Shown one piece after another: positions 13,057 to 61,003 of a stretch of 64,000 nt of DNA. The notes beneath the pieces are model-generated. The model ran no database searches and was not told the DNA's origin. It saw nothing but the letters and a program-made list of their open reading frames with translations. Numbering within the stretch: position 1 is the stretch's first letter; each line of letters starts with the position of its first letter. Source of the DNA: Candidatus Electrothrix aestuarii (lineage in GTDB: Bacteria > Desulfobacterota > Desulfobulbia > Desulfobulbales > Desulfobulbaceae). A program made the position numbers and the translations under genes. The stretch is taken from NCBI GenBank assembly GCA_032595685.2, contig CP159373.1:1199001-1263000 (forward strand). Direction: 5' to 3'.

Positions 13057-14205
13057 ATGAAAAAAATAGCCCTTATAGGCGCATACCCAGCCTCGTTAAT
13101 TAACTTCCGAGGCGACCTCATCCGCACCCTTGTCCTATCAGGCCATCAAGTCACAGCGATGGCCGCACCTGCTTCTCAGGAAACTATTGCAAAAATACAT
13201 TCTCTCGGCGCTGATTTTCGCTCGTTCCCGATACATAGAACTGGCCTGAATCCTTGGAAAGATCTTCAGACATTTTTTTCTTTACGCAGGATATTCCGTC
13301 AGGAAAAGCCAGATGTTATTTTGGCCTATACAATTAAGCCTGTGATCTGGGGAGGGCTCGCAGCAAACTATTCATCGAGTAGTTCTCAATTTTATGCATT
13401 GATTTCAGGATTAGGCTTTGCTTTTGAAAATCAGAACATTCAAAGAAAGCTACTTAGAAAAACAGTATCATGGCTATATCATCTTGCTTTGAGGAAAGCT
13501 AATCGGGTTATTTTTCAAAATCAGGATGATGAAAAAGTTTTTTTCAGTCAAAACATTATCCCAGAGAATAACAGTGCTGTTGTCAATGGTACAGGTGTGC
13601 ATCTTCGACGTTTTCGAGAGACTAAAATTAAAAAAAATAAACCTGTTTTTTTACTCATAGCTCGCCTTCTCAGAGCAAAGGGAATCAGAGAATACATCTG
13701 CGCTGCCCGACAAATAAAAAAGATCTACCCTCATGTGATGTTTAATCTTATTGGCCCGGAAGACTCTTCACCTAATGGAATACCCATAATTGAACTAAAG
13801 CAATGGCATCATGAAGGGGTAATTCAATATTTAGGTGAAACTCACGATGTCCGGCCCTTTCTTACGGAGTGTAGTACATATGTGTTGCCATCGTATTATG
13901 GAGAAGGAATTCCCAGGTCCATCCTTGAAGCAATGGCAATCGGTCGTCCCATCCTAACGACTGATAACGTTGGATGTAAGGAAACAGTGGTACAAGGTGA
14001 AAATGGCTTTCTAGTTCCTATACGAAATACAGAAGCTCTTGCAGAACGTATGATCTGGTTTATTGAGCATCCAGAAGAATGGGAGCGTATGGGGAAAAGA
14101 AGTAGAGAGATAGCGGAAAATAAGTTTGATGTACGAAAAATCAATAAGGAGCTAATGGCAATTATGGGCCTTGAACAACCCAACACCAAGTCGGCTTTTT
14201 ATTAA
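13057..14205 (+). CDS. Glycosyltransferase family 4, PglA-like
   Basis: 382 residues. IGAYPASLINFRGDLIRTL and ILAYTIKPVIWGGLAA are the hallmarks of the PglA/WfbT-type branch, which adds N-acetylgalactosamine or a related sugar to a lipid-linked bacillosamine or QuiNAc. The C-terminal domain shows LLIARLLRAKGIREYI and EGIPRSILEAMAIGRPIL with E-x7-E. Its position upstream of PglC-, PglD- and PglE-like genes strengthens the assignment. In Campylobacter, PglA acts directly after PglC. About 200 bases upstream are gene-free, so it may start its own transcript. The sugar specificity is inferred. Confidence 0.75.
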   Translation: MKKIALIGAYPASLINFRGDLIRTLVLSGHQVTAMAAPASQETIAKIHSLGADFRSFPIHRTGLNPWKDLQTFFSLRRIFRQEKPDVILAYTIKPVIWGGLAANYSSSSSQFYALISGLGFAFENQNIQRKLLRKTVSWLYHLALRKANRVIFQNQDDEKVFFSQNIIPENNSAVVNGTGVHLRRFRETKIKKNKPVFLLIARLLRAKGIREYICAARQIKKIYPHVMFNLIGPEDSSPNGIPIIELKQWHHEGVIQYLGETHDVRPFLTECSTYVLPSYYGEGIPRSILEAMAIGRPILTTDNVGCKETVVQGENGFLVPIRNTEALAERMIWFIEHPEEWERMGKRSREIAENKFDVRKINKELMAIMGLEQPNTKSAFY

Positions 14206-14242: not shown

Positions 14243-15622
14243 TTGTTGAACATTGAAAATCTCATAAAATCTGGAGAATCCCAGACCATCGAATTCAAAA
14301 AATCCTTTGGTCGTGAGACCATAGATACACTGGTGTCCTTTGCCAATGCTCAAGGCGGAACAGTGCTGATTGGCGTAGCAGATGACGGCACTCCCTGCGG
14401 TGTATCTGTGGGCAAAGAAACACTCAACGAATGGCTCGGCCAAATTAAGTCCGCTACAAGTCCGTCAATTATTCCAGATATAGAACTCGTTACCCTGCAT
14501 GATCAACCGATTGTCAGAATTCATATTGATGAGTACCCGGTAAAACCGGTCAACACCAAAGGGCGCTATTTTAAGCGAATCGCCACCTCAAATCATCAGC
14601 TCTCGTTAAGCGAGATCACAGACCTGTACCTTCAGTCATTACAGATTTCCTGGGATGCCCATGAAGCTCCGGGAGCATCACTGGATGCCTTGTCGCTGGA
14701 CAAAATTGAAAAATTTATCGCCCAAGTAAATCAAAGCGGTCGCTTCACCTTGGATCCCTCCCCTCTGCTGGCGTTAGAGAAACTCAAACTTGTTGCCTCA
14801 GGACAGCCGACCTGGGCCTCCCTGCTCTTATTTGCCGACGAACCGTTGCGCCATCATATTCATATCGGACGATTTAAAACATCCAGCATAATTATTGACG
14901 ACCGGCAGATCACCGACACCTTGTTCGAGGCTGTGGAACAGGCTATGAAATATATCATTGCCAATATCCGCGTTAGCTTTGAATTTGATGGTGGTTTGCA
15001 GCGGAAAGAACGGTTTGCATATCCTCTGGCAGCCTTGCGGGAAGTATTGCTCAACGCTGTTGTTCACAGAGATTATACCAACCCTTCTGATATCCAGATC
15101 AAAATCTTTGATAAAAGCATTACCTTTTTCAGTCCGGGAAAACTCTATGGTGATTTAACCCTTGCCGAACTGGAGACGGACAGTTATTCCTCGCACCTGC
15201 GCAATAAGATGATAGCCGAAGCATTTTATTTAACACGGAATATTGAGAAATACGGCAGTGGCTTTATCCGTATTCGCAAAGAATTGGCAGACTATCCTGG
15301 CCTACGCTTCCGTATTGAAGAAGCCGGTTCAGGACTGCTGGTCAGCTTTGAGCTAAGAGAAGACAGCCCCCCCAATCACCCCCCGATCACCCCCCGATCA
15401 CCCCCCGATCACCCCCCGATCACCGAACTTGAACAGAAAATTTTAGGGTTGCTGCAGGAAAACCCCAAAGCTACCGGCAGGGAACTTGCTGATCGACTGT
15501 CCATACGTCCTGATACGATCAAGGAATATTTCGGACGATTGAAAGCAAAAGGGGTGTTGAGGCGTGAAGGAAGTGCCCGTTCAGGGCAATGGATTGTTTT
15601 GCAGAATGTGGAGAGAAAATGA
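14243..15622 (+). CDS. AlbA_2 (Schlafen-like) / ATPase-fold putative regulator, copy 1
   Basis: 459 residues from a TTG start with AAGGGGA six bases upstream. Residues about 8-125 form an AlbA_2 domain (GESQTIEFKKSF, GGTVLIGVADDG, YPVKPVNTKGRYFKRI). Residues about 245-350 match the C-terminal ATP-binding region of these proteins (YPLAALREVLLNAVVHRDY, FFSPGKL, EKYGSGFIRI). The last 60 residues form a winged-helix domain (LLQENPKATGRELADRLSI). A Pro/His linker encoded by 11-bp repeats separates the last two. Such proteins are annotated as regulators or RecG-like, but their roles are poorly known. It sits between the PglA-like and PglC-like genes and overlaps the latter by four bases. Confidence 0.8.
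   Translation: MLNIENLIKSGESQTIEFKKSFGRETIDTLVSFANAQGGTVLIGVADDGTPCGVSVGKETLNEWLGQIKSATSPSIIPDIELVTLHDQPIVRIHIDEYPVKPVNTKGRYFKRIATSNHQLSLSEITDLYLQSLQISWDAHEAPGASLDALSLDKIEKFIAQVNQSGRFTLDPSPLLALEKLKLVASGQPTWASLLLFADEPLRHHIHIGRFKTSSIIIDDRQITDTLFEAVEQAMKYIIANIRVSFEFDGGLQRKERFAYPLAALREVLLNAVVHRDYTNPSDIQIKIFDKSITFFSPGKLYGDLTLAELETDSYSSHLRNKMIAEAFYLTRNIEKYGSGFIRIRKELADYPGLRFRIEEAGSGLLVSFELREDSPPNHPPITPRSPPDHPPITELEQKILGLLQENPKATGRELADRLSIRPDTIKEYFGRLKAKGVLRREGSARSGQWIVLQNVERK
15375..15424 (+). repeat. Tandem 11-bp repeat in the AlbA_2 protein linker
   Basis: Four complete copies of ATCACCCCCCG plus a partial fifth encode the proline-rich linker (HPPITPRSPPD, one 33-bp cycle). Because 11 is not a multiple of 3, gain or loss of one unit changes the frame and would detach the C-terminal winged helix. 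The second AlbA_2 gene has an in-frame 12-bp repeat at the corresponding place. Confidence 0.9.
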
Positions 15623-16221
15623 CCGTGACAAAACGTTTTTTTGACCTGCTCCTTACCCTTCCCGGTATCCTCTGTATTTCCCCGCTGTTCCTGTTGACTG
15701 CATTGTTGGTACGGATTAAGATCGGTAAACCAATTCTTTTTATCCAGAAACGTCCCGGTCTGCATGGCAAACCGTTTCGGATGTACAAATTTCGTACAAT
15801 GACTGATGAAAAAGATGCAGACGGTAACCTGCTCCCTGATGAAAAACGACTTGTGCCTTTTGGCCGTTTTTTGCGCAGTACCAGTCTGGATGAATTGCCA
15901 GAGCTGATTAATGTCATCAAAGGGGATATGAGTTTGGTTGGGCCAAGACCTTTGCTTATGGAGTACCTTGACCGATACACGCCGGAACAGGCCAGACGAC
16001 ATGATGTGTTGCCCGGCATTACCGGATGGGCCCAAGTAAACGGGAGAAATGGCCTCTCTTGGGAAGAAAAATTTGACAGGGATGTCTGGTATGTGGACAA
16101 TCGTTCGTTATGGCTAGATGCCAAAATACTCTGTATAACCTTTCTGAAAGTTTTCAGACGCGAGGGGATCAATCAGGAGGGGCAGGCAACCATGACATTT
16201 TTTACAGGGGGGAAAAAATGA
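15619..16221 (+). CDS. pglC: Undecaprenyl-phosphate sugar phosphotransferase, PglC-like
   Basis: 200 residues from the ATG that overlaps the upstream stop (ATGA). The in-frame ATG ten codons earlier lies inside the AlbA_2 gene. One N-terminal membrane or re-entrant helix (LLLTLPGILCISPLFLLTAL) is followed by the monotopic phosphoglycosyl transferase core: FIQKRPGLHGKPFRMYKFRT, RSTSLDELPELINVIKGD with the catalytic D91-E92 dyad, SLVGPRPLL, and GITGWAQVNGRN. This is the small PglC architecture without the large WbaP/WcaJ membrane domain. It transfers a sugar-1-phosphate, by family a bacillosamine-type UDP-sugar, to undecaprenyl phosphate at the inner membrane. Confidence 0.88.
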   Translation: MTVTKRFFDLLLTLPGILCISPLFLLTALLVRIKIGKPILFIQKRPGLHGKPFRMYKFRTMTDEKDADGNLLPDEKRLVPFGRFLRSTSLDELPELINVIKGDMSLVGPRPLLMEYLDRYTPEQARRHDVLPGITGWAQVNGRNGLSWEEKFDRDVWYVDNRSLWLDAKILCITFLKVFRREGINQEGQATMTFFTGGKK

Positions 16222-17337: not shown

Positions 17338-17454
17338 AGCCAGCTTACTAAAGAATAGGCGATTACTGGCGACTATTCTTTATGGAAAATAAACAAATTT
17401 TCCTCTCCGTCCATAAGCCCCAGATTTTTTCCTACACTGGAATTGAACGGAACC

Positions 17455-17538
17455 AGTGCCCCCCACATGGGTGGCCAAAAACTTGATTTTATCCACGAAG
17501 CATTCGCCTCCAACTACATCGCTCCGGTCGGCCCCGGG
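17455..17538 (+). pseudogene. Truncated 5' remnant of the PglE-like aminotransferase gene
   Basis: The frame reads SAPHMGGQKLDFIHEAFASN then YIAPVGPG. The same residues, with only Q/K and Q/H type changes, open the intact aminotransferase at 19813 (SAPHMGGQELDFIQEAFASN). The DNA is about 80 percent identical over roughly 80 bases, by eye, and then stops. The AlbA_2 gene copy 2 begins 30 bases later. The remnant marks the old position of the aminotransferase directly after the MaoC gene, before the AlbA_2 gene was introduced. Confidence 0.85.
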
Positions 17539-18492
17539 ATAACCATCAAACGAAGTCTTAGTTACCCTTTATGCTTGCAACACATTTGGAATTGCCCGGC
17601 CTAATTGCCGCAGGCGAAAATGAACAAACAGAATTCAAACGCTCTTTTGACAGAGAAGCCGTTGAAACACTCAGTGCCTTTGCTAATACAAGCGGCGGTA
17701 ACCTGTTAATAGGAGTTGACGACAACGGAACTATCAAAGGAGTGGACATCGGAAAAGAAACTCTTCAAAATTGGAATAATACAATCAAACAGGCATGCTC
17801 ACCTTCAATCCTTCCAGAAAGTTCCATTATTTCCTATGAAGGCAAGAAGGTGGCCCTGCTTTTCATCCCTGAATATCCGGTTAAGCCGGTCAGCTGTAAA
17901 GGAAGGTATTTCAAGCGGGTCAACAATGCGAACCACCGGATGAGCATTACCGAGATCGCCGACCTGCATCTCAAAACCTTTAATACAAGCTGGGACCACT
18001 ATCCTGATCCGCGCCATACATTGGCTGAAATATCTCTCGACAAGGTCAACGAATTCATCACGCTTACCAACAAAAACCGTTCTCTTCCCCTTGACGATCC
18101 GCCTTTAACAGTGCTGCGAAAATATGAGCTGCTACAGGGGCACGATCAGATAACGAATGCCTGTTACTTGCTCTTTGCTGATGCGAAAACCATGCAGACG
18201 GCTGTTGACCTCGGTCGTTTTTCTAGAGAAACCATCATCAAAGACAGCCTCACTATCCGTTCTGATATTTTCAGCAGCGCCAACAAGGCATTAGAGTTTC
18301 TACAAAAACACATCAATAAAGGATACATTATTTCAGGTGCAGCGCAACGAACGGAACGCTGGGACTACCCGATGGATGCCCTGCGTGAAATCGTTATCAA
18401 CATGATCGTGCATCGGGATTATACCCATGCCTCCGAATCTGTCATAAAAATCTTTGATGATCATATACAATTCTATAATCCCGGAAAGTTAC

Positions 18493-19386
18493 TAAGAACC
18501 TGTTGAAAAACTATTTATACCTATTTAGCATCTTCCTGATTGATGCTATGTAAACCATAGTTTCGGCTGATTGCGCCTGTCGCTCGTAGTCGATCATCAG
18601 TCTTCGATCCCATTGGAACCAGCCGAAGGTCCTTTCAATAATCCAGCGTTTCGGCACCACTTGAAACCCTTTAGTCTTCAAGGTGGGAGCGATTTCCAAC
18701 CGGCACTGAAAGGCGCACCATAAATAGTCGGCCAAATCGCCTCGATAAGCGGCATCGGCCCAAACCATTTTAATGGAAGCAAACCACAAAAAAAGAGTTT
18801 GAAAGATAGAGATAGACTGCTTTCCATCTGACAGGTTGGCATCATGAACTTTGACAATTAGCGGAAAACCAAGGGTATCCGAAATTACATGGCGTTTTCG
18901 TCCTTTTACTTTCTTATTGCCGTCAAAGCCTCGGGTCTCAGCCATCTGTGCAGTTTTGACGGATTGACTATCAATCATAACCGCAGAAGGCTCAGCGTTT
19001 TTCCCTTGTTCCTCTCGCAGGTCCGTGTGAATTGCCTGCTTGACGAGAAACCAGGTTCCATCCCGCTTCCATTTACGAAAGTAATAGTAAACGCTGGTCC
19101 ACTTTGGGAAATCATGCGGAATTTCTCGCCATTGACACCCAGTGTGAACCAAGTAAAAAATTGCGTTGAGAATCTCTCTGAGAGCATAAGATCTTGGCCT
19201 GCCGGTTTTTGAAGGAGAGGGGAGAAATTTATTAATAATTTCAAATTGTATATCAGTGAGATCTGTGCTGTAGCTAGCTCGTTCCATGTTGTTTTTCCTT
19301 TCGCTGTTTGATATGGCTGAAAAGAAAATTATGCTATGAAACTGCTTCAGCAGTAAAGTCTCAAAAAGTTTTTAAACAGGCTCTAA
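18493..19386. mobile_element. IS5-family insertion sequence (18496-19383, 888 bp) with 3-bp target duplication
   Basis: The terminal inverted repeats are GAACCTGTTGAAAAACT (left) and, reverse complemented, GAGCCTGTTTAAAAACT (right), 15 of 17 identical. The element is bounded by TAA on both sides (18493-18495, 19384-19386), the TNA-type duplication of the IS1031/IS427 groups of IS5. It carries one intact transposase on the minus strand. It splits the AlbA_2 copy 2 gene and appears complete and potentially active. Confidence 0.93.
18511..19287 (-). CDS. IS5-family DDE transposase
   Basis: 258 residues, a complete transposase of the IS1031-like branch. The N-terminal helix-turn-helix region has DLTDIQFEIINKFLP and GRPRSYALREILNAIFYLV. 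The catalytic residues are D106 (MIDSQSVKTAQ), D178 (VWADAAYRGD) and E219 (RWIIERTFGW), each in its family context, and the GNKKVKGRKRHV block is present. The start ATG follows GGAAAAACAAC. Nothing suggests inactivation. It is transcribed against the surrounding glycan operon. Confidence 0.95.
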   Translation of the reverse strand: MERASYSTDLTDIQFEIINKFLPSPSKTGRPRSYALREILNAIFYLVHTGCQWREIPHDFPKWTSVYYYFRKWKRDGTWFLVKQAIHTDLREEQGKNAEPSAVMIDSQSVKTAQMAETRGFDGNKKVKGRKRHVISDTLGFPLIVKVHDANLSDGKQSISIFQTLFLWFASIKMVWADAAYRGDLADYLWCAFQCRLEIAPTLKTKGFQVVPKRWIIERTFGWFQWDRRLMIDYERQAQSAETMVYIASIRKMLNRYK

Positions 19387-19812
19387 GCGACTTGTCGATC
19401 TCTCGGCTTCTTGCCGGAAATTATACCTCGACCATTCGCAATAAACAGATTGCCGCTCTTTTTAAAGAAGCCGGTCTGATTGAACGATACGGCTCGGGTA
19501 TCAAAAGGATTTTGGAATCATTTACCGACTATGATCTTCCCCTGCCTCTTTTCGAGGAAGTACAGGAAGGGTTCCGGGTCACAGTTACCTGCACCACCCA
19601 GAAAACCACCCAGAAAACCACCCAGAAAACCACAACCAAAGAGCAGCTCCTGAAACTGGTACAAGAAAATCCACGTATCACCAGGTCAGAACTTACTGTA
19701 CAGCTCTCTAAAAGTGAGAGTACGGTAAAGGAGCACTTGGCTCAACTGAAAGCTCAGGGCAGATTACAACGAATCGGCAGCGATCGAAGCGGCTGCTGGC
19801 AGGTTATTGTTC

Positions 19813-20943
19813 ATGAGGAATAAACGAATATTTTTATCCGCCCCCCATATGGGCGGACAAGAGCTTGACTTTATCCAGGAGGCCTTTGCTTCCAACTATA
19901 TTGCTCCGGTCGGTCCCCAGCTCGACGCCTTTGAGCAGGAATTTGCCGAAAAGGTCGGTGCAAAGTATGCCGCAGCTGTTACTTCCGGCACAGCTGCCCT
20001 GCACCTGTTGTTGCGCTATGCAGGGGTTGGATTAGGAGATACGGTACTCTGTTCTACTTTCACCTTTGCTGCCAGTGCCAATCCTATTCTCTATCAGGGA
20101 GCCATACCTGTCTTTATCGATTCGGATCATTCCAGCTGGAACATGGACCCTGCACTACTGGCTTCAGAACTCGAACGACGTGCGAACCAGAATACCCTAC
20201 CAAAAGCCGTGGTGCTGGTGCATCTTTACGGTCAGCCTGCTGATATTGATCCCATCAAAGCTGCCTGTGACAAGTATGGAGTCCTACTAATCGAAGACGC
20301 AGCCGAGGCTCTTGGAGCGAAATATAAAGGTAAGGTGCCGGGAACCTTCGGCCTGGCCGGTTTTTACTCCTTTAACGGCAACAAAATCATTACCACGTCC
20401 GGCGGCGGCATGATTGTTTCCGATGATGAGGCATTGATCCGCAAGGTCAAATTCTGGGCCACCCAGGCCAGAGACAATGCTGTCCATTATCAACACACGG
20501 AAATGGGCTATAATTATCGGATGAGCAATGTGCTGGCCGCCATAGGCCGAGGGCAGTTGCAGGTGCTGAATGACCGTGTGCAGAGAAAGCGGGAAATTTT
20601 TGCCTCTTACCAAGCGCAGCTGGTGGACCTGCCCGGTCTCGCCTTTATGCCGGAACCGGATTTTGCCCGCTCCACCCGCTGGCTCACTTGCCTGACCATC
20701 AATCCTGAACAAGCCGGAATCAACCGTGATACCATTATTCAGGAGCTGGAAAACAACAACATTGAATCCCGCCCGACCTGGAAGCCTATGCATATGCAAC
20801 CCTTATATGCAGACTGTAACGTTGTAGGCGGACAGGTTGCCGAGGAGATTTTTCGTAACGGGCTTTGCCTTCCCTCCGGTACAGGCATGCACGACGAGGA
20901 CTTGAAGCGAATCGTGCATATCATCCGAACTTGCTGGCAGTAA
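19813..20943 (+). CDS. pglE: DegT/DnrJ/EryC1/StrS aminotransferase, PglE-like
   Basis: 376 residues from the ATG at 19813; a TTG two codons earlier is also possible. It is a fold-type I, PLP-dependent sugar aminotransferase: TSGTAALHLLLRYAGVGLGD, STFTFAASANPILYQGAIPV, D162 in IEDAAEALGA stacking with PLP, and the PLP Schiff-base lysine K191 in SFNGNKIITTSGGG. The NGNK context and the FTFAAS block match the PglE/LegC group acting on UDP-4-keto-6-deoxy-GlcNAc. Together with PglD it would make UDP-N,N'-diacetylbacillosamine. Its start overlaps the end of the disrupted AlbA_2 gene, and a remnant of its own 5' end lies at 17455. Confidence 0.87.
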   Translation: MRNKRIFLSAPHMGGQELDFIQEAFASNYIAPVGPQLDAFEQEFAEKVGAKYAAAVTSGTAALHLLLRYAGVGLGDTVLCSTFTFAASANPILYQGAIPVFIDSDHSSWNMDPALLASELERRANQNTLPKAVVLVHLYGQPADIDPIKAACDKYGVLLIEDAAEALGAKYKGKVPGTFGLAGFYSFNGNKIITTSGGGMIVSDDEALIRKVKFWATQARDNAVHYQHTEMGYNYRMSNVLAAIGRGQLQVLNDRVQRKREIFASYQAQLVDLPGLAFMPEPDFARSTRWLTCLTINPEQAGINRDTIIQELENNNIESRPTWKPMHMQPLYADCNVVGGQVAEEIFRNGLCLPSGTGMHDEDLKRIVHIIRTCWQ

Positions 20944-31356: not shown

Positions 31357-32214
31357 ATGGATCGCTACATAAATTTATTTACCGATTACGGCTTCAAAAA
31401 GGTATTCGGTGAAGAACCAAACAAAGATCTCCTCATTGCCTTTCTCAACGAGCTCCTTGGAGAAAGAGACAGGGTCCAGGACCTGACCTATCTGAACAGC
31501 GAACGCATGGGAAAAACAGCCCGGGAACGAAGCGCTGTCTTTGACCTCTACTGCACCAACGAGCAAGGGGAAAAATTCATCGTTGAAATCCAAAGGGTAA
31601 AACAAAAGTTTTTCAAAGATCGAAGTGTCTATTATTCTTCCTTCGCTATACAGGAACAGGCCGCCAAGGGTAAGGACTGGAAATACGAGCTTAAGAGCGT
31701 CTACACTATTGGTATTTTAGATTTCTGTTTTGAAGATTCCAATGAAGAAAAATTTCATCATCAGGTAAAATTGATGGAAGAGGAGACCAAAGAGGTCTTC
31801 TATGACAAGCTGACATTCATCTACTTGGAAGTCCCTAAGTTCAAAAAAGATATTCATGAGCTCACCTCAGATTATGAACGCTGGCTCTATGCCTTTAAAA
31901 ACCTCCACCGGTTGAAAAACCACCCAGAAGAACTGAAGGCAGGCATTTTCAAACGCCTGATTGAAATCGCCGAAATCGCTCGCTATAACGAAGCAGAGCA
32001 ACGGGATTACCAGGAAAGTCTAAAAGATTACTGGGACCTGAAAAGTGCAATAGATACCTATTACGAGGAAGGGAAAGCCGAAGGGCTACAGGAAAAAACA
32101 CGGGAAATAGTCATCAACGGTCTGCAACAGGGCGTTGCCATCACAATGCTCGCCGCTTTAACAGGATTATCAGAGGAGGAGATCGTGAAAATACAGGAGG
32201 AAGGTAAGAAGTAA
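31357..32214 (+). CDS. Rpn family recombination-promoting nuclease / PD-(D/E)XK transposase-like protein
   Basis: 285 residues. The start LFTDYGFKKVFGEEPNKDLL and FLNELLG are the signature of the PDDEXK_2 (Rpn/YhgA-like) family. The catalytic core is seen in RSAVFDLYCTNEQGEKFIVE then IQR, giving the D...E-x-Q pattern. ELKSVYTIGILDF follows. The C-terminal EGKAEGLQEKTREIVINGL is the typical helical tail. RpnA-type proteins nick or cut DNA and promote RecA-independent recombination; some act in phage defence. These genes are often mobile and present in many copies. It stands alone between the phosphate genes. Confidence 0.88.
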   Translation: MDRYINLFTDYGFKKVFGEEPNKDLLIAFLNELLGERDRVQDLTYLNSERMGKTARERSAVFDLYCTNEQGEKFIVEIQRVKQKFFKDRSVYYSSFAIQEQAAKGKDWKYELKSVYTIGILDFCFEDSNEEKFHHQVKLMEEETKEVFYDKLTFIYLEVPKFKKDIHELTSDYERWLYAFKNLHRLKNHPEELKAGIFKRLIEIAEIARYNEAEQRDYQESLKDYWDLKSAIDTYYEEGKAEGLQEKTREIVINGLQQGVAITMLAALTGLSEEEIVKIQEEGKK

Positions 32215-60773: not shown

Positions 60774-61003
60774 TCGAGGATGCCCCGAACCATTCATCGA
60801 GTATGGTTCGATCCGTCCAACGAGTATGCCCCTGACAATTTAACGGGTGTACTTCAGATCAAACTACGGTAGTACTTTGGATAAAACTACCAGGGTACTT
60901 CAGACCAAACTACGGTAGTACTTTGAATCAAAGTACCGTAGTACTTTAGAGCAAACTACTACGGTACTTTTTAAAAAAGAACGGGAGTGTTTTTTCCGGG
61001 ATA
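60774..61003. repeat. Array of about ten degenerate 23-bp tandem repeats
   Basis: Units start at 60774, 60797, 60820, 60843, 60866, 60889, 60912, 60935, 60958 and 60981, each exactly 23 bases, with the pattern ACGG(T/G)AGTACTT-x4-ATCAAACT best kept in units 4 to 8; the first three and the last are diverged. The units are contiguous with no spacers, so this is not a CRISPR array. The period is not a multiple of three, and no frame is open through it. It lies between the 3' end of purB and the upstream side of the redox operon. A related short array is at 34951-35019. Confidence 0.85.

Follow-up and report, generated by a model that had tools for sequence, protein, structure and literature searches.

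The 11-bp direct repeats in the linker-coding part of an AlbA_2 (Schlafen-like) gene in the window, that is, the whole stretch of 64,000 nucleotides analysed here, probably represent the DNA-binding site of the winged helix of the very protein whose gene carries them, with one helical turn per unit. Sequence comparison across the family suggests that such a site is kept in the linker of most relatives, and that a frame switch is possible as an additional property of some of them. The recognition helix varies together with the bases of a unit whose length is one turn of the DNA helix, and on this basis we infer that the protein's own target is the array.

The window gene (Table 1) encodes a putative RNase of the Schlafen (AlbA_2) type that also contains a GHKL ATPase, and the order of its domains (SLFN_AlbA_2, GHKL ATPase, winged helix), derived from Pfam, AlphaFold2 and Foldseek, is that of bacterial Schlafens. 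The AlphaFold2 model has a mean pLDDT of 85.8, with the linker residues 375–389 below 50, and its winged helix comprises helices at 395–406, 412–419 and 423–435 and strands at 439–442 and 449–452. Foldseek matches this model to 3lmm, a C. diphtheriae protein that is uncharacterised (E 8e-22); SLFN12 and SLFN11 match with E 1e-4 to 1e-3, and weaker matches (E 0.003–0.02) include the SAMD9 tRNase domain, histidine-kinase ATPases and the PcaV and ArsR repressors. In the 231 relatives with a near-complete core, E12 is conserved in 224, E17 in 207, K19 in 228 and D47 in 175, and the ATPase residue N271 is present in all. According to the available part of PMC5862951, the acidic active-site residues of Schlafen13 are E205, E210 and D248, and its related domain cuts tRNA and rRNA; judged by sequence spacing, the distance of five from E12 to E17 equals that from E205 to E210. 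With the window protein, PADLOC matched pAgo/SIR2-associated and CARF models only in part, and no NCBIfam model matched.

Table 1. Coordinates of the regulator gene, its repeat array, the flanking genes and the interrupted paralogue in the window.
Feature	Position	Strand	Remark
GT4 glycosyltransferase (PglA-like), upstream	13057..14205	+	
AlbA_2 (Schlafen-like) / GHKL ATPase / winged-helix gene	14243..15622	+	459 aa, TTG start
SLFN_AlbA_2 domain, residues 12–120	14276..14602	+	Pfam E 2.3e-22; carries E12, E17, D47
HATPase_c_4 (GHKL), C-terminal part, residues 283–368	15089..15346	+	Pfam E 4e-16
11-bp direct-repeat array, unit CCCCCCGATCA	15368..15424	+	4 perfect copies, 1 imperfect, 2 bases over; linker-coding
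Winged helix, residues 393–459	15419..15619	+	HTH_24 (395–440) E 7.8e-9
Recognition helix, residues 423–435	15509..15547	+	D424, K427, E428: top columns covarying with repeat-unit DNA
ATGA, regulator stop overlapping likely PglC-like start	15619..15622	+	Possible translational coupling
Bac_transf sugar-phosphate transferase (PglC-like), downstream	15619..16221	+	If the start is the ATGA overlap
Paralogue, first part: AlbA_2 and start of ATPase, interrupted by insertion	17571..18506	+	
DDE transposase gene, IS4/5-type, inside paralogue	18511..19287	-	
Paralogue, second part: remaining ATPase, then linker and winged helix	19308..19823	+	Open frame begins in inserted sequence
Paralogue 12-bp array, ACCACCCAGAAA x3.4	19593..19633	+	In frame

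An earlier note on this DNA had placed four 11-bp units in the linker, and Tandem Repeats Finder agrees, reporting period 11, 5.2 copies and a 97% match; the perfect copies begin at 15379, 15390, 15401 and 15412 and are preceded by one with a single change, the DNA of the array being rich in C. The same note had held that one unit more or less would remove the winged helix, and scripted changes of unit number bear this out, since a gain or loss of one, two or four units gives a protein ending at 381–415 aa without the winged helix (392–404 aa for one or two units), and three units more or fewer retain it. Because the unit has 11 letters, gain or loss of copies can also turn the DNA-binding head off. 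Two tandem units with up to three mismatches are found at no other place in the 5.1-Mb genome, and the tandem unit of the paralogue has one three-mismatch place in this genome. The array is not a product of chance: the same repeat search on 238,874 bp of core sequence from 266 relatives returned 5 arrays with a score of at least 50.

The regulator gene lies, as previously claimed, between a PglA-like and a PglC-like gene, and an ATGA or TRATG occurs at the stop codon in 76 of 202 relatives. Glycan synthesis or export genes account for 13 of 20 downstream genes, which were hand-picked, mostly longer ones, from the 43 that could be had behind 56 GTDB array genes; they encode PglD (two), UDP-glucose dehydrogenase (two), NeuB, DegT (three), GDP-mannose dehydratase/epimerase (two) and ABC/Wzt (three, the L052 ABC gene lacking a match to the Wzt domain). 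The other seven comprise one HsdS, one DEAD helicase and five with another or no match, and ten upstream genes include four of glycan type, with HsdM also among them. Restriction operons host family genes at L146 and L144, and the L019 gene stands beside a likely type III methylase (sequence read by eye). This class of genes is found mostly in surface-glycan operons and in some restriction operons. Between 12800 and 16000, promoter and terminator signals were no more frequent than in the shuffled background. At L009:2850–3000, directly behind a relative 84% identical to the window gene, the place of the PglC-like gene is taken by what may be a small mobile element, an inverted repeat (GGAGTTACGCAGTTG ... 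CAACTGCGTAACTCC).

Relatives were taken from whole genomes, GTDB contigs (the best 80 of at least 585 matches), viral contigs and plasmids (three used of 134 matching records; the P. distasonis plasmid gene had a single record). For 266 distinct ATPase cores, the best linker repeat has a period of 12 bp in 161, 11 bp in 22 and another value in 5, the rest having a tail of at least 45 aa in which no array was found (61), no tail (9) or an end cut by the contig (8). Among 206 non-redundant genes with a core and a recognisable winged helix on the same strand, 168 carry a 12-bp array, 25 an 11-bp array, 3 another period and 10 none, a count that favours arrays because its winged-helix models were made from array genes. 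A period of 11 or 12 bp prevails irrespective of reading frame. In-frame periods of 9 and 15 bp are rare in the family (2 and 1 genes), one of 18 bp was not seen, and copies are few (2–7 in the 206-gene set). The units are diverse (e.g., GAGGGAGTAAAT, AAAACCACCCAG, GTTACCCCGCAT and AAAAGTTCGGAG), and nine genes of one class, the GGGACCAAGTC type, are of 11 bp and in frame. No stop triplet arises in tandem in 16 of 18 11-bp consensus units, compared with 53 of 117 12-bp units. In L144, the E. coli IncC plasmid member, the protein stops behind the ATPase and an array is absent.

A second winged-helix type brought in 30 loci, six of which encode Fic proteins, five of them (L303, L304, L306, L307 and L331) assigned by the HPFxxGNGR motif and L311, from the window's own genome, by likeness. 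Their arrays are short (1.9–3.2 copies, some with a 78–87% match) and of the TPQV, TPEV or SDQV type, and the unit CCCCCCAAGTCA is common to the Fic gene L304 and the AlbA_2 gene L305. That units resembling those of AlbA_2 genes stand before the same type of winged helix in Fic proteins supports the reading of the array as a binding site. Two further arrangements were observed in the survey: another ATPase-type gene (L060:2371–3948) has about 17 copies of a 12-bp linker repeat, changing between VDTQ and NAPV types along the array, and one open frame (L046:4001–5502) holds a duplicated linker array plus winged helix. An apparently inverted cassette at L105 was rejected, being a 2.4-kb, 100% palindrome that looks like an assembly artefact.

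The DNA of the unit follows the winged helix rather than the core. In 135 non-redundant genes (999 permutations), the similarity of units correlates with that of winged helices (r 0.389; partial 0.388 given the core, p 0.001), and the partial correlation with core similarity, the winged helix being held constant, is -0.048 (p 0.995). Among 370 pairs with close cores (at least 0.6), the unit is shared by 2 of the 232 with different winged helices (<0.4), 26 of the 96 in between and 39 of the 42 with similar ones (at least 0.6); L028 and L020, for instance, have near-identical cores (0.98), winged helices alike at 0.16, and units that agree at 5 of 12 places. In bins of winged-helix identity from 0.2 upward, sharing amounts to 12/1181, 41/1129, 68/379, 32/68, 5/6, 1/2, 4/4 and 1/1, with the bins limited to alignments of at least 50 residues since shorter ones (1–10 residues) had distorted the top of the series. 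At L079, two genes whose cores are 0.95 alike differ in their array-plus-head ends and are followed by an orphan array-plus-head frame, in what looks like cassette exchange of DNA specificity; the sequence (L079:1–5700), with its AlbA_2 genes in tandem, belongs to a MAG labelled Porphyromonas cangingivalis. Because the array occupies the disordered linker immediately ahead of the winged helix, protein and site would be inherited and exchanged as one piece.

Conservation of the unit lies at the level of its DNA. At identical amino acids, codon identity is 0.67–0.82 in the units versus 0.38–0.42 in the winged helices of the same pairs, the comparison being made in pairs with at least three quarters of their unit residues alike, of which 163 of 168 have a winged-helix identity below 0.8; the five closer pairs gave 1.00 and 0.73. 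In the 11-bp arrays each copy is read in a different frame, and the 11-mers resemble the 12-mers, less one base, of related winged helices above those of others (partial r 0.28, permutation p 0.001, 18 x 117 genes). This effect is modest, with a mean of 7.5 of 11 places for the nearest winged helix against 6.4 overall and many single units without a close match. The window unit agrees at 10 of 11 places with that of L100, its nearest winged-helix neighbour among the 12-bp genes, and the encoded peptide differs. As judged from these comparisons, the repeat unit belongs to the winged helix and is conserved at the DNA level, synonymous bases included.

The columns of the winged helix that explain unit similarity beyond overall similarity were sought in 104 class-A winged helices, and the three leading ones, K427 (z 14.9), E428 (9.7) and D424 (8.6), all lie in the recognition helix, as do the weaker G431, Y429 and T425; the hydrophobic recognition-helix positions 426 and 430 show no covariation with the unit in this set. 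Columns outside the recognition helix also covary, namely K409 (z 6.3), G412 (4.7), R446 in the wing (4.1), R422 (4.0) and Q398 (3.6). In the second class of winged helix (31 genes), the top columns are the residue adjacent to the array, a trivial effect, and the Asp that starts the recognition helix (z 6.3). With Glu at 427, the unit contains GGA in 26 of 35 genes, GGG in 22 of 35 and CCC in none of the 35; with Lys, it contains CCC in 20 of 32, GGA in 1 of 32 and GGG in none of the 32. When one gene is taken per winged-helix cluster, the association of Glu with GGA or GGG and of Lys with CCC holds at 84, 69, 50, 31 and 21 clusters, with p running from 2e-11 to 0.015 for Glu (1e-6 at 50 clusters) and from 8e-7 to 0.047 for Lys (3e-4 at 50 clusters); these values are optimistic because the sequences are related, and they weaken with clustering. 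The orientation of the unit relative to the gene does not flip between the Glu427 and Lys427 classes, which could be explained by common descent or by mRNA binding, and binding to double-stranded DNA does not demand a flip.

The proposed picture is a row of sites spaced by one helical turn, which the winged helix encoded just behind them would occupy, and a protein bound to its own gene would most likely limit its own transcription and that of the downstream genes of the operon. In most relatives the unit has 12 bp, and gaining or losing whole units would not disturb the reading frame. Where the unit has 11 bp, as in the window gene, one or two units more or fewer would separate the protein from its DNA-binding head and leave it OFF for DNA binding, and the PglC-like gene may then lose its translational coupling. 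This scheme predicts physical binding, autoregulation, RNase activity and polarity on the next gene. Near matches to the units outside the arrays of the loci examined number 182, versus 41.8 for shuffled units. Five loci, at places within or next to further arrays, account for 147 of these; operator copies in promoters were rejected as a candidate, the 35 near matches outside the five loci being no excess.

If the array is indeed the site of its own protein, hundreds of genes in many phyla print the DNA word of their winged helix only bases before it, and together they would form a natural table of recognition-helix residue against DNA target (Lys and Glu against CCC and GGA) from which winged-helix specificity could be read in the sequence. 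For a family of putative RNases a DNA target would be predicted that is open to a simple binding test, the 11- or 12-bp units of coding repeats in the AlbA_2 family would be explained, and the 11-bp subset would show a binding array that doubles as a frame switch.

The earlier note had read the array as a contingency switch coupled to glycan synthesis. In such a reading the 11-bp tract exists to be unstable, slipped-strand mutation toggling the winged helix and so varying the expression of the glycan operon. Part of that proposal stands, in view of the non-triplet unit, the ON/OFF arithmetic of the window array, the ATGA overlap with the next gene and the glycan-operon setting of most of the hand-picked downstream genes, and a natural frame difference also speaks for it. 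In the window's own genome, the AlbA_2 gene L290 (= L007; G000:C1:4679917–4681254) has its winged helix out of frame and is 22 bp, exactly two 11-bp units, shorter than the sister-species orthologue L291, whose winged helix is in frame; the two are 97% identical over residues 1–434 and agree at 498 of 501 aligned bases outside the gap, and another relative, L293 (92%), is in frame. In this genus, the frame of the head hence changes with the gain or loss of 11-bp units, and the cause may be reversible switching, decay or a collapse of the repeat during assembly. For the window gene itself, the one close relative, L009, has a degenerate linker array with its winged helix in frame. The out-of-frame rate is 2/25 (L007 and L324) for 11-bp arrays versus 2/168 (L030 and L312) for 12-bp arrays (Fisher p 0.08); L324, in which only the last part of the core is in frame, may be decayed. 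L030 was rejected as an array switch because its fault lies upstream of the array, and L312 has a long C-run in its 12-bp array and one unit with an extra base, so that homopolymer slippage can act too. L309 was likewise rejected, for stop codons and decay, and L321 was left uncounted as 3' fragments without a core match. A difference of three 12-bp units between the viral contigs L118 and L120, identical at 322 of 334 bases, is in line with unstable copy number. As the main meaning of the array, nevertheless, such switching is unlikely. Since the 12-bp arrays, which whole-unit changes cannot switch, outnumber the 11-bp ones by 168 to 25, the array, on this sequence evidence, is not mainly a slippage tract, and slippage does not explain the conservation of synonymous sites or the tracking of the recognition helix by the unit. 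Moreover, 23 of 25 11-bp genes are in frame (166 of 168 for 12 bp), the nine genes of the GGGACCAAGTC class are in frame as well, and copies are few.

Even less probable is that the repeats are merely a flexible four-residue spacer whose length is set by slippage, with frame-keeping as the reason for the 12-bp unit. The disorder of the linker in the AlphaFold2 model, the location of arrays in the linker with hardly any in the cores, and the in-frame length change between L118 and L120 fit such a spacer; the 11-bp arrays, the kept synonymous bases, the dependence of the unit on the winged helix rather than the core and the Lys/Glu 427 pattern are left unexplained by it, and the scarcity of other in-frame periods also speaks against it. 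The least likely of these explanations, and a very improbable one, is that the protein binds the array in its own transcript and controls translation: the unit covaries with the recognition helix of a winged helix, and this winged helix weakly resembles in structure the MarR- and ArsR-type repressors, whose usual target is double-stranded DNA. The fixed orientation of the unit relative to the gene would suit binding to the transcript, and so would the RNA cleavage reported for the related Schlafen13 domain (available part of PMC5862951). An improbable extension is that the array acts as an antidote, being the only tandem site of the head of a Schlafen-type RNase and located in its own gene, so that an intact locus would hold the enzyme in check and loss, replacement or degradation of the locus would free it. 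If this were true, allele exchange of the glycan or restriction operon or phage breakdown of host DNA would release the enzyme, exchangeable surface-glycan and restriction loci would be guarded without an antitoxin protein, and array-plus-head cassettes, swapped as one unit, would give new, non-cross-reacting versions.

The placement of a binding site inside the gene of its own binder, as proposed here for the AlbA_2 arrays, has a known counterpart in phage lambda, where the iterons encode the part between the two domains of the O protein. The O gene holds four 18-bp iterons (ori-lambda), direct repeats bound by O itself, as described in the available part of PMC3349717. The likeness consists in direct repeats at a domain boundary within the binder's own gene, with site and binder inherited together, binding being predicted in the present case. 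Lambda O, however, is a replication initiator with 18-bp units, whereas the window protein is of the Schlafen type with a GHKL ATPase and the unit has 11–12 bp; unlike the lambda iterons, the AlbA_2 arrays occur across phyla in operons, and in many classes the recognition helix and the unit vary together. The closest description found for the protein is that of bacterial Schlafens of the same AlbA_2-GHKL-wHTH order, which occur in BREX neighbourhoods and are possible anti-phage RNases; the available part of that source (PMC12839542) does not mention a linker array, and the members surveyed here lie largely in surface-glycan operons.

In phase-variable contingency genes, too, the number of copies of a non-triplet repeat in the coding sequence determines the frame, and the natural frame difference in the paralogue L290 extends the likeness. 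The window gene differs from them in the link between its unit and the recognition helix and in the frame-neutral 12-bp units of most of its relatives. A 12-bp x4 intragenic repeat is present in Legionella LPG2559, which carries the annotation RecG, according to the available part of PMC2639597; this candidate member has in common with the family a 12-bp coding array and a name often given to AlbA_2 proteins. In the same part of that source, LPG2559 is absent from the seven genes whose repeat number is compared between strain groups, and none of 26 arrays changed over three months of passage. The position of LPG2559, if it is a family member, outside the seven compared genes counts against fast switching, as do the few copies of the family arrays. 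With the exception of this one possible case (PMC2639597), none of the titles and abstract beginnings among the open-licence papers matched deals with linker arrays in the AlbA_2 family.

The paralogue 3 kb away had been described as carrying an in-frame 12-bp repeat at the same place; the array is there, but the gene is not intact, a DDE transposase gene lying between its two frames. The ends of the insertion (18505–19387) resemble GARCCTGTTNAAAAAC inverted repeats with a possible CTAA target duplication (by eye), which we take to be IS5-type traits. Upstream of the broken paralogue stands a decayed copy of the 5' end of a DegT aminotransferase gene (17381–17570 versus 19807–19930; peptide PHMGGQKLDFIHEAFASNYIAPVGP), the intact DegT gene standing downstream, and the paralogue may have been brought in together with a DegT copy or inserted into one. 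Elsewhere in the window, more than one full copy of the paralogue's 12-bp unit is matched at 31915–31931, and a separate 23/46-bp tandem repeat array lies at 60849–60959.
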